Assembly: GCF_002858805.1 (NCBI RefSeq)
Contig: NZ_PJZI01000004.1
Location: 62,001 to 126,000 of the forward strand
Origin: Chimaeribacter arupi
GTDB lineage: Bacteria; Pseudomonadota; Gammaproteobacteria; Enterobacterales; Enterobacteriaceae
Length of the DNA stretch: 64,000 nt
Reading direction: 5' to 3'
Part shown: positions 7,223 to 30,309 of the stretch, in pieces
How the letters are laid out: every line of letters starts with the position of its first letter
How positions within the stretch are numbered: the stretch's first letter is position 1
Notes under the pieces: model-generated
The model's database searches: none
Told to the model about the DNA's origin: nothing
Seen by the model: the letters and a program-made list of their open reading frames with translations, nothing else
Made by a program: the position numbers and the translations under genes

Positions 7223-8518
7223 ATGAAAAGATATGCATTGGTCGGCACCGGCGGCCGCGCCGGGCTTTACCTTGAGGCAATTGCCGCCACCTACCGCGAA
7301 AGCGCGCAGTGGGTGGCGTTCTGCGACACTAACCAGACGCGGATGGACTACGCCAACCATCTGCTGGCCAAGGCCGGGGCGGCACCGGTGTCCACCTGGC
7401 GGGCCGGGCAGTTTGAGGCGATGATCGCCGAAACCCGGCCGGATATCGTGATTGTTACCAGCATCGACCGTACCCACGACGACTATATTGTGCGGGCGCT
7501 GCACGCCGGCTGTGATGTGATCACCGAAAAGCCGATGACCATCGACGCGGCGCGCGCCCTGCGTATTGCAGAGGCGATTGAGAAGACCGGCCGCCAGGTA
7601 CGCGTGGCGTTCAACTACCGTTATGCGCCGCACCACAGCAAAGTGCGTGAACTGCTGATGAACGACACCATTGGTGAGGTGTTTTCAGTGCATTTTGAGT
7701 GGCTGCTGAATACCGAGCACGGCGCGGACTACTTCCGCCGCTGGCACCGCGACAAGCGCAACAGCGGCGGGCTGCTGGTGCACAAATCGACCCACCATTT
7801 CGACCTGATGAACTTCTGGCTCAACAGCTCGCCGGAACAGGTGTTTGCACTGGGCGACCTGCGCTTTTACGGCCGGGAGAATGCGGAAAAACGCGGCGAA
7901 ACCCGGTTCTACAGCCGGGCGCACGGCGCGCCGCAGGCCGCGGATGACCCGTTTGCCCTGCATATGGACGAGAACCCGCAACTGCGCGCGCTCTACCTGG
8001 AGGCGGAGCATGAAGACAGCTACTACCGTGACCAGAGCGTCTTCAGCGACGGCATCACCATTGAGGATACGCTGTCAGTGCTGGTGAAGTACCGCAACCG
8101 CACGCAGCTCACCTATTCCCTCAACGCGTACCTGCCGAAAGAGGGGCTGAATGTGGTGTTCAACGGCAGCAAGGGGCGGCTGGAGATGAACGTGGAGGAG
8201 AACTCCTACGTCAACGGCGGCGGCCTGCGCGAGGAGGAAGGCAACCTCGACGCCTGCCGCATCACCGTGTACCCGATGTTCGGCACCCCGTGGGAAGCGG
8301 ACTTTACCGCCGGTGAAGGCGGGCACGGCGGCGGCGATCAGGCGATGCTGGCGGACTTGTTCGGCAACCCGCCCGCTGACCCGCTGCACCGCGCCGCCGA
8401 CCACCGCGCCGGCACCCTGTCTATCCTGACCGGTGTCGCCGGTAACCTCTCCATGCAGCGCGGCACCCCGGTGTTCTTCGACGAGTTCGAGGTGGTACGT
8501 AAGCTGCGCGGGCGCTGA
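7223..8518 (+). CDS. Gfo/Idh/MocA-family NAD(P)-dependent oxidoreductase
   Basis: 431 residues. The N-terminus MKRYALVGTGGRAGLYLEAI is a Rossmann nucleotide-binding loop. The family signature EKP (VITEKPMTID) lies near residue 100, followed by the typical C-terminal alpha/beta substrate domain with SGGLLVHKSTHHFDLMNFW. Relatives oxidise or epimerise sugars, inositols or sugar acids; the substrate cannot be read here. At 431 residues it is longer than the common 330-380. I chose ATG 7223 because AGGAGA lies 8 bases upstream and the Rossmann fold begins at once; the frame extends 8 codons further without support. It is a single gene between rluA and djlA, with no sugar transporter or kinase beside it, and is absent from the E. 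coli order. Confidence 0.85.
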   Translation: MKRYALVGTGGRAGLYLEAIAATYRESAQWVAFCDTNQTRMDYANHLLAKAGAAPVSTWRAGQFEAMIAETRPDIVIVTSIDRTHDDYIVRALHAGCDVITEKPMTIDAARALRIAEAIEKTGRQVRVAFNYRYAPHHSKVRELLMNDTIGEVFSVHFEWLLNTEHGADYFRRWHRDKRNSGGLLVHKSTHHFDLMNFWLNSSPEQVFALGDLRFYGRENAEKRGETRFYSRAHGAPQAADDPFALHMDENPQLRALYLEAEHEDSYYRDQSVFSDGITIEDTLSVLVKYRNRTQLTYSLNAYLPKEGLNVVFNGSKGRLEMNVEENSYVNGGGLREEEGNLDACRITVYPMFGTPWEADFTAGEGGHGGGDQAMLADLFGNPPADPLHRAADHRAGTLSILTGVAGNLSMQRGTPVFFDEFEVVRKLRGR

Positions 8519-29294: not shown

Positions 29295-29322
29295 TAAAAA
29301 AACCCCGGCGATTGCCGGGGTT
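29295..29322 (-). terminator. Rho-independent terminator of the first small-peptide gene
   Basis: On the reverse strand the stem CCCCGGC - AATC - GCCGGGG (29303-29320) is followed by seven or more T. It lies 28 bases after the peptide stop and gives that gene its own transcript end. Confidence 0.9.
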
Positions 29323-29349: not shown

Positions 29350-29580
29350 TTACTTCCGCAGGCCGCCCTGGTAAGGCGGTTTTACCGGCTTCGGACCGCA
29401 GTAAGAAGACGGGAACGTCCCCGGCAGATATTCCACCTCGGAAAGTTTACCGTGTTTATTTCTGCAGTATTTATAACCTTCGCAATACCAGGTATTCCCT
29501 GAGTTACTCCAGTCATAATTGACGCCGCAATCTTTGCCGCCGACGATAACGTCAACATTATCCAACGCTAATTTTTCCAT
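29350..29580 (-). CDS. Small cysteine-rich peptide with double-glycine leader (copy 1)
   Basis: 76 residues. The first 15 residues, MEKLALDNVDVIVGG, look like a double-glycine leader of the kind removed by peptidase-containing ABC exporters. The remainder has four cysteines (residues 18, 33, 39 and 61), many aromatic residues and the C-terminal block YCGPKPVKPPYQ. Copy 2 at 29957 has the same leader, Cys pattern and C-terminal block. AAGGA lies 8 bases before the ATG, and the gene has its own promoter-like upstream element and terminator. I do not know the function; a bacteriocin, signalling peptide or other secreted small protein are options. It recalls small enterobacterial DUF4762-type proteins, but that is memory, not a search. 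No peptidase-type ABC exporter is encoded in the window. Confidence 0.75.
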   Translation of the reverse strand: MEKLALDNVDVIVGGKDCGVNYDWSNSGNTWYCEGYKYCRNKHGKLSEVEYLPGTFPSSYCGPKPVKPPYQGGLRK

Positions 29581-29682
29581 GAAAAAAGTCCTTTTGTTAA
29601 AAATAGTCTTTATGCCAAAACATTATTCAGCAGAGTGCTGAGTTAAATTATCGGCCGGAAGCGTAGCATTGAGAAAAGTGCA

Positions 29683-29710
29683 CTGTAAATTCAAACGAAT
29701 TAAATCATTA
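29683..29710 (-). promoter_or_regulatory. Conserved upstream element of peptide gene copy 1
   Basis: A 28-base stretch containing CTGTAAATTCAAAC and ATTAAAT. It lies 103-130 bases before the start codon. 25 of 28 bases are the same as at 30282-30309, at the same distance from copy 2. It reads as a shared promoter or regulator site; read in the direction of transcription it contains TTGAAT, a possible -35 hexamer. Confidence 0.6.
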
Positions 29711-29832
29711 TTTCACCCTGAATAAATTAAAGGTTTTTAACGTTAGTGCGGTTAATGTGAAGTGAGTTATTGATAAAAGCGTTTAATAAGCAAAAAAATA
29801 GGAGGGAACATGACAAATCAGTGTTCATCAAT

Positions 29833-29858
29833 AAAAACCCCGGCTTGTATACCGGGGT
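29833..29858 (-). terminator. Rho-independent terminator of the second small-peptide gene
   Basis: On the reverse strand the stem ACCCCGG - 8-base loop - CCGGGGT (29837-29858) is followed by TTTTT. It lies about 100 bases after the stop of the gene at 29957. Confidence 0.85.
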
Positions 29859-29956
29859 GGGGGGAGCAATACCGGCCAGGTTTTTGACGGCCCGCCCGGT
29901 AGCGTAATCAGCCACGCCTTGTAATGTTAATTAACTACCCGCGTGGCTTAACGCAC

Positions 29957-30178
29957 TCATTGATAAGGGGGTTTTACCGGCTTAGGCCCGCAGTAGTTAG
30001 AGGGATACGTGCCGTTGTGATATTTTACATCTTTCCGGTTGCCGTGCTTATCGGTGCAGTAGTTATAGCCCAGGCACGTCCAGGTACCGTTGGATGAATT
30101 CAGGCTCCAAGTATAGTCTGTGCTGCAGTTTTTGCCGCCGGTTACCGCAGCAACATTATTTACTGATAACTTTTCCAT
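29957..30178 (-). CDS. Small cysteine-rich peptide with double-glycine leader (copy 2)
   Basis: 73 residues, paralogous to the gene at 29350. The leader MEKLSVNNVAAVTGG is followed by a mature part of 58 residues with cysteines at 18, 35, 41 and 63. The segments GYNYCTDKHG and YPSNYCGPKPVKPPYQ match copy 1 (GYKYCRNKHG, FPSSYCGPKPVKPPYQ). The even number and fixed spacing of cysteines suggest two disulfides after export. AAGGAG lies 5 bases before the ATG. It has its own upstream element and terminator, so each copy can be expressed alone. No immunity or maturation gene is recognisable beside it. Function unknown. Confidence 0.75.
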   Translation of the reverse strand: MEKLSVNNVAAVTGGKNCSTDYTWSLNSSNGTWTCLGYNYCTDKHGNRKDVKYHNGTYPSNYCGPKPVKPPYQ

Positions 30179-30281: not shown

Positions 30282-30309
30282 CTGTAAATTCAAACAGATT
30301 AAATGATTA
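30282..30309 (-). promoter_or_regulatory. Conserved upstream element of peptide gene copy 2
   Basis: Counterpart of 29683-29710: the same CTGTAAATTCAAAC core with three differences in 28 bases, 104-131 bases before the start codon. The intervening leader sequences differ much more, so the element has been kept selectively. Confidence 0.6.

Follow-up and report, generated by a model that had tools for sequence, protein, structure and literature searches.

Two orphan double-glycine peptide genes of Chimaeribacter arupi are candidate cargo of a maturation and export cluster elsewhere in the same genome

We analyzed a 64,000-nucleotide stretch of Chimaeribacter arupi DNA (contig NZ_PJZI01000004.1, positions 62,001 to 126,000 of the forward strand; hereafter the window) that carries a tandem pair of genes for small cysteine-rich peptides with double-glycine (GG) leaders. 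Our analysis points to the pair being orphan precursors, the cargo of a cluster located elsewhere in the same genome that would mature and export them in the five steps proposed below, and we put the probability of this reading at about 0.6. By sequence comparison, three of its parts are firm: the peptides belong to a DUF4762-like family, the genome has one C39 exporter of the type that co-occurs with that family, and the gene set is conserved.

Gene 1 (29350..29580, minus strand) encodes a 76-aa precursor with a GG leader (residues 1-15), a four-Cys core, and an NKHG version of a K-x-G motif; gene 2 (29957..30178, minus strand) encodes a 73-aa precursor with a GG leader, a four-Cys core, and DKHG. 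As a preliminary description of the window had recognized from genes of 76 and 73 codons, they are paralogues, with both open reading frames (ORFs) intact and 59% identity. The GG lies at residues 14-15 in both, giving a leader of 15 residues. The alignment also upholds the claim of four cysteines at matching places (18/33/39/61 in gene 1 and 18/35/41/63 in gene 2) and a common C-terminal block, CGPKPVKPPYQ. The leader pattern MEKLxxxNVxxVxGG given for both peptides fits gene 2 but not, strictly, gene 1, where residue 12 is I and not the V of gene 2. Between the genes, the nonsynonymous distance (dN) is 0.32 and the synonymous distance (dS) is 1.83, which is near saturation, for a dN/dS of ∼0.17. 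By region, dN is 0.43 in the less constrained middle and 0.07 in the nearly fixed tail, as expected from the earlier remark that the middle had diverged around a fixed tail. By these estimates, the pair is under constraint overall.

Similarity to DUF4762 had been suggested, and we found it to be a genuine relationship that runs through bridging relatives. The Pfam profile PF15959 (DUF4762) scored gene 2 at 14.7 bits against a cut-off of 27 and did not match gene 1. Several homologues of the pair clearly exceed that cut-off, and 49 of 51 aligned family members match at E ≤0.1 (best 7e-46), with gene 2 weakly among them. On this comparison, the window peptides are divergent DUF4762 relatives below the formal membership cut-off. 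The profile hidden Markov model (HMM) check proposed at the outset picked out both peptides once a family profile was used: built from 49 relatives without the window rows, it found gene 2 at E 5.2e-11 and gene 1 at E 1.6e-9, and it matched no other window frame at E ≤1 (2270 frames searched, drawn from the window and three further stretches), so the match is not chance. The same profile recovered a third peptide of this genome on contig C34 (E 1e-7), which adjoins a MaoC-like gene 40% identical to the MaoC-like gene of the cluster; this neighbor is absent from the other orphan-peptide stretches examined for context. A single-sequence search with gene 2 of genome contigs, plasmids, and phages gave no match where the profile search succeeded, and a Pfam DUF4762 search of this genome also gave no match, which we read as low sensitivity and not absence. 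A match of gene 2 to GRASP_targ_2 (NCBIfam, E 0.22) was taken as noise. Two loci from the first family search (L003 and L007) were dismissed as chance, there being no small family GG ORF in their ORF lists, and HMM scans that used ATG starts missed GTG-start peptides in L100, L106, L152, L158, L159 (two), and L166.

Across 89 distinct aligned peptides, the GG and the second Cys are invariant (89/89), and the first, third, and fourth Cys are kept in 87, 87, and 88. Thus, homologues retain the GG leader and nearly always the four cysteines, features whose loss the preliminary description had named as grounds for abandoning its proposal. Two peptides of one lineage have lost the first and third Cys jointly, from which we predict the pairs C1-C3 and C2-C4; the sequences suggest rather than establish this connectivity.

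The exporter evidence comes from co-occurrence. The peptide profile found the family in 46 of 392 genomes of the bacterial family, at 75 places and in 24 of 154 genera. Strong exporter relatives were present in exactly these 46 genomes and in none of the 346 without a peptide, with the threshold set, after the scores had been seen, in the gap from 604.8 to 281 bits. Forty-five of the genomes scored 604.8 bits or more; the remaining exporter (G338; 272 bits, partial, 49% identical, adjoining a peptide) was counted in by judgement. C39 exporters as a whole, weaker ones included, were found in 138/392 genomes at 1e-40. The exporter search scored two candidates per genome and undercounts. Forty-nine of the 75 peptide places, in 44 genomes, lie at most 2.2 kb upstream of an exporter on the same strand; among the 46, the genomes without such adjacency are this one and another that is 73% complete. 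The other 26 places are apart from a listed exporter, a group that includes the three peptides here, one truly adjacent peptide, and one or more located at the end of a contig; 24 of them lie in stretches examined for context, and the G162 pair was read for sequence alone. A further DsbA-LpxL-C39 set with its own peptide (L158, G337:C1:3491600-3498800) is not in the exporter table. Its 6-Mb genome already has two such clusters and thus several machines alongside seven listed peptides. When 295 genomes were searched at the level of the order with other queries, 5 had the peptide; the LpxL-like gene occurred in those 5 and in a single distant case besides. All 5 belong to the 46 counted above.

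The clusters occur in Serratia, Yersinia, Klebsiella, Enterobacter, Providencia, Rahnella, Pantoea, and others. Escherichia coli and Salmonella IncF plasmids carry divergent clusters with an exporter 37-42% identical, and on the three such plasmids searched a peptide is located elsewhere on the plasmid. A search of E. coli genomes returned 9/5426 with a place covering at least 80%, the query being swamped by insertion sequences.

The expectation that export would need a machine elsewhere in the genome was borne out. We found one C39-peptidase match in the genome, on contig C110, within a nine-gene minus-strand cluster ordered as LpxL-like acyltransferase, C39 exporter, MacA, MacB, NodT-type outer-membrane protein, FabF-like ketosynthase, MaoC-like protein, acyl carrier protein (ACP), and FabG-like reductase. 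The LpxL-like and MaoC-like proteins gave no Pfam match at 1e-5 and were named through relatives. The exporter genes are open in this assembly, and PADLOC matches to the exporter covered ATPase parts and were set aside. Where tested, the C110 contig is ∼99% identical to a 353-kb C. arupi plasmid, p353, on which our search found no peptide. The p353 record (L086, NZ_CP119396.1) has split frames in the acyltransferase, the C39 exporter, the MaoC-like gene, and a neighboring PhzF-like gene; all of these are open in the window's genome, and the splits on p353 are sequencing errors or decay. The window pair sits on another contig than the cluster, no peptide gene lies directly upstream of the cluster, and of the three orphan peptides that the genome keeps, two are in the window. 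We consider it very likely that the pair belong to the family and that an exporter of the C110 cluster type is cognate to them.

Among 60 named loci, the conserved order is peptide, DsbA-like, LpxL-like, C39, MacA, MacB, outer-membrane channel, ketosynthase, MaoC-like, ACP, and ketoreductase. The LpxL-like, C39, MacA, MacB, channel, ketosynthase, and ACP genes are present in 60/60, the DsbA-like gene in 56/60 (one of the four exceptions being cut by a contig end), and the MaoC-like and reductase genes in 55/60. All ten cluster genes occur in 51/60, and the gene order is never different. A family peptide lies upstream in 55/60 by profile and in three more; one locus is cut, and L138 has none. 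The latter (Rahnella laticis contig 1) is a second cluster with no DsbA-like gene and no recognizable peptide, in a genome that also has the complete L098. The CxxC motif of the DsbA-like proteins (n=56) is CHYC in 50, CHFC in 4, CYYC in 1, and not read whole in one. The Gln of C39 peptidases has a catalytic-site role, and Cys, His, and Gln are all kept in 64/64 exporters. At one locus (L019 of G070, ∼7297-7854), the peptide and DsbA-like gene are preceded by a gene for DsbB, as though the oxidase came with a partner of its own. Five Serratia clusters (L112, L119, L120, L121, and L129, from S. inhibens, ureilytica, nevei, marcescens, and plymuthica) lack the MaoC-like and reductase genes and keep ketosynthase and ACP. 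In the four of these that were aligned, which belong to one clade, F follows the K of K-x-G, as against 1 of the other 45 in the alignment. Downstream of the cluster in 15 loci, beyond the reductase gene and on the opposite strand, lies a family of 71-96-aa soluble-looking proteins (e.g., L132 20682-20897, minus strand), perhaps a mere core-genome neighbor.

In the proposed pathway, the ketosynthase, ketoreductase, MaoC-like protein, and ACP would make a special acyl chain (step 1), and the LpxL-like enzyme would take it off acyl-ACP and attach it to the precursor while still in the cytoplasm (step 2). The best candidate for the acylation site is the invariant Lys of K-x-G, in a modeled turn between strands 2 and 3. 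The C39 exporter would cleave after GG and move the core into the periplasm (step 3), where a DsbA-type oxidase would form the disulfides, predicted as C1-C3 and C2-C4 (step 4). Since the dedicated DsbA is a remnant here, a general DsbA would have to act in this genome. Lastly, MacA, MacB, and the outer-membrane channel would release the peptide (step 5). Oxidation by a DsbA-type enzyme requires the peptide to dwell in the periplasm; a type I exporter working in one step would not allow for this, but a C39 exporter followed by a MacAB pump would. The enterotoxin STII resembles this scheme in that, according to excerpts of PMC5985334, it is a disulfide peptide that is oxidized by Dsb proteins in the periplasm and exits via MacAB-TolC. 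STII enters by Sec, whereas here the first step would be the C39 exporter.

We judge acylation of the peptide somewhat better than an even prospect, given four fatty-acid-synthesis (FAS)-like genes, an LpxL-like enzyme, and the position of K-x-G in a turn. Nine of 13 LpxL-like members match Pfam Lip_A_acyltrans at E ≤1 (best 7.8e-8). A model of the Serratia marcescens acyltransferase (predicted local distance difference test, pLDDT, 85) matched only PatA and LpxM among solved structures at E <0.001 (14 matches; PatA E 3.8e-8, LpxM 2e-7; TM-score by query 0.44-0.51), and a sequence search for solved relatives gave none beyond one chance-like match at E 0.45. LpxL-type enzymes use acyl-ACP, which fits the presence of an ACP in the cluster. 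The K and G of K-x-G are invariant in the 89 aligned peptides, which were found with profiles that themselves contain the motif; it occurs in 12 further peptides outside the alignment and is retained in the two peptides that lost two Cys. The peptide model (pLDDT 69, predicted TM-score 0.45) places K-x-G at residues 43-46, where a turn joins strands 2 and 3; a structural search with it gave no match below E 0.79, and no solved sequence relative of the peptide was found at E ≤5.

The acyl genes could instead act on the producer. In such a case, the peptides would be ordinary unmodified disulfide microcin-like bacteriocins, and the acyl genes and LpxL-like enzyme would remodel the producer envelope as self-protection. 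LpxL-type enzymes do act on lipid A, as the Pfam name implies, and self-protection of this kind would explain why no separate immunity gene was recognized. MacB-type pumps also handle disulfide peptides, according to excerpts of PMC5985334. Against an envelope role stand the invariance of K-x-G in the aligned peptides and the distant locus G395, which keeps the acyltransferase with an exporter and a GG-leader ORF where no FAS-like genes were found in 19 kb, though neither point is decisive. We regard this explanation as improbable.

The proposal that the cysteines form disulfides gained genomic support from the CxxC DsbA-like gene in most family clusters. In two Rahnella loci that lack the DsbA-like gene, the peptides carry just 2 Cys; the remaining 47 aligned peptides carry 4 to 6 Cys and are accompanied by a DsbA-like gene. 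The G395 locus (L184, from another family of the order) has the acyltransferase, C39, MacA, and MacB genes, and no DsbA-like, channel, or FAS-like gene was found in 19 kb. Its 49-aa GG-leader ORF (L184 3393-3542), assigned to the system by position alone, is Cys-free and lies before the LpxL-C39-MacA-MacB set, near an ecotin gene. This locus may represent a simple form of the system.

Several observations weigh against the reading of the pair as acylated, exported cargo. The link between DsbA and cysteines is not strict: this genome has four-Cys peptides with only a DsbA remnant, the Salmonella plasmid pSalMiami pairs a four-Cys peptide with a DsbA-like gene interrupted by stop codons, and L138 has neither DsbA nor peptide. 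K-x-G, whose count owes something to profiles already holding the motif, may have a structural role instead of being an acylation site, and its absence from the G395 ORF counts against a universal one. We know of no acylated product of any family member. The acyltransferase motif is H-x3-D, one residue shorter than the H-x4-D/E of the LpxL type, and the local LpxL-like copy had no Pfam match at 1e-5. The third catalytic position of C39 is Asn in 64/64 exporters. No conserved immunity gene was recognized within 1.5 kb before the peptide or 2.5 kb past the last core gene among families in at least 5 of 60 loci, immunity genes having no common sequence. The 46 genomes are related and do not amount to 46 independent events, so a hypergeometric figure of 1e-60 overstates independence. 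Finally, the C110 cluster has no adjacent peptide and all that is left of its DsbA gene is a 64-aa ORF lacking CxxC, so the local system may be half decayed.

This last point raises the prospect of a relic: the two genes would be copies that outlasted the loss of the peptide and DsbA gene next to the cluster, and their products would no longer be exported. The 64-aa ORF lies upstream of the acyltransferase, and its end matches that of a DsbA-like protein at 10/15 residues, a weak match (E 8e-5 in a single comparison) that probably marks a DsbA remnant; an intact dedicated DsbA-like gene was not found. The three other genomes of the genus have neither peptide nor exporter cluster, which also suits a relic. 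On the other hand, peptides apart from a listed exporter are common (26/75 places), the exporter genes are open, and both peptide genes are intact with a dN/dS of ∼0.17 and retain start signals, with a Shine-Dalgarno-like run before each. Intrinsic-terminator-like hairpins follow gene 1 (29301..29322, minus strand; 9 pairs, 7 G-C) and gene 2 (29837..29858, minus strand; 8 pairs, 6 G-C), in a region with 5 such sites versus 3.2 in shuffles. Overall, a relic seems distinctly improbable to us.

A 27-bp element common to both genes lies upstream of gene 1 (29684..29710, plus strand) and of gene 2 (30283..30309, plus strand). With ≤3 mismatches allowed, we found no third copy in the genome, and a look beside the third peptide and the exporter cluster did not reveal the element there; it could have a regulatory role or reflect mere inheritance through duplication. 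With its own hairpin and upstream element, each gene looks like a separate unit. The Pfam neighbors of the pair are EamA, MFS, HxlR, an arginine-repressor type regulator, DcuC, OTCase, amino-acid kinase, and arginine deiminase; as the preliminary description had stated, no peptide exporter, immunity, or modification gene was recognized among them. The window is probably chromosomal by its look: for the 20 kb tested, no plasmid-collection record covers 80%, and the best listed matches are carAB.

As to what the product does, we favor competition between bacteria, or else another function at the surface or in association with a host; this is the least certain part of our reading, held with less confidence than acylation. 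If the product were instead a lipopeptide for adhesion, surface behavior, or signaling and not antibacterial, the lack of a recognized immunity gene would be expected, as would some of the company the cluster keeps: a fimbrial-subunit-like family in 20/60 loci (15 upstream and 5 downstream matches), a LuxR-like regulator in 16/60, and another fimbrial-like protein in 9/60, these families having been named by reading the sequences. However, such a gene is listed for only about half of the 60 loci, none lies beside the window pair, and regulators may simply be shared; we find this version rather unlikely. In Enterobacter, Klebsiella, Citrobacter, and others (among L127-L150), the fimbrial-subunit-like and LuxR-like genes immediately precede the cluster, and the second fimbrial-like gene stands upstream of the peptide in nine Yersinia loci (L102-L149).

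Our preferred reading, orphan cargo for a cluster elsewhere in the genome, touches several known systems. Toxins of the RTX type are acylated on Lys from acyl-ACP before type I export, as in HlyC/HlyA; HlyC is not LpxL-like, and RTX substrates are large. Class IIa microcins (microcin V type) share the GG leader, a C39 peptidase ABC exporter, a small Cys core, and occurrence in Enterobacterales. The GG leader and C39 exporter, which excerpts of PMC9746304 give as common to class II microcins, are both found here, in the window pair and its genome. In contrast to class IIa microcins, the system described here has a DUF4762-like core; extra DsbA-like, LpxL-like, and FAS-like genes; MacA and MacB beside the exporter, where microcins use a single adaptor and TolC; no recognized immunity gene; and Asn in place of Asp in a C39 triad that the same excerpts name as Cys, His, and Asp. 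Lipidated ribosomally synthesized and post-translationally modified peptides (selidamides, goadvionins, lipolanthines, and lipoavitides) combine a ribosomal peptide with an acyl group attached by a dedicated acyltransferase, and a Gly-Gly-cutting peptidase transporter is proposed for phaeornamide. In the parts of PMC9505594 and PMC13060382 concerned, the named examples are lanthipeptides or proteusins with GNAT-type acyltransferases. Here the enzyme is LpxL-like, disulfides would form the cross-links, and no GNAT is among the ten conserved cluster genes, no separate GNAT search having been made. PF15959 itself, matched by 49/51 aligned members, is a family without an attached function, and the window peptides fall below its cut-off. 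Among the literature matches listed, all open-licence papers, there was no description of this cluster. DUF4762 is known by name, and the cluster is possibly a new class of ribosomal lipopeptide.

More tentatively, and as slightly less likely than not, we propose a class of ribosomal lipopeptides in Enterobacterales whose GG precursors would be acylated on Lys by an LpxL-type enzyme with its own fatty-acid system and then cleaved, folded, and released in two steps by a C39 exporter, a dedicated DsbA-type oxidase, and a MacAB pump, with orphan precursors on chromosome and plasmids serving as varied cargo for one machine. According to excerpts of PMC9746304, a published microcin pipeline discards C39 exporters unless their third catalytic residue is Asp, so microcin searches could miss a type with Asn in 64/64 exporters; there may be overlap with the pipeline's own hits. 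If true, our reading would give a function to the unnamed family DUF4762 and reveal a widespread biosynthetic system in many Enterobacterales genera and on E. coli and Salmonella plasmids. It would also join microcin-type export, LpxL-type acyl transfer, and MacAB peptide release, so far studied apart, and would make the role of MacB-type pumps beside peptide genes directly testable.
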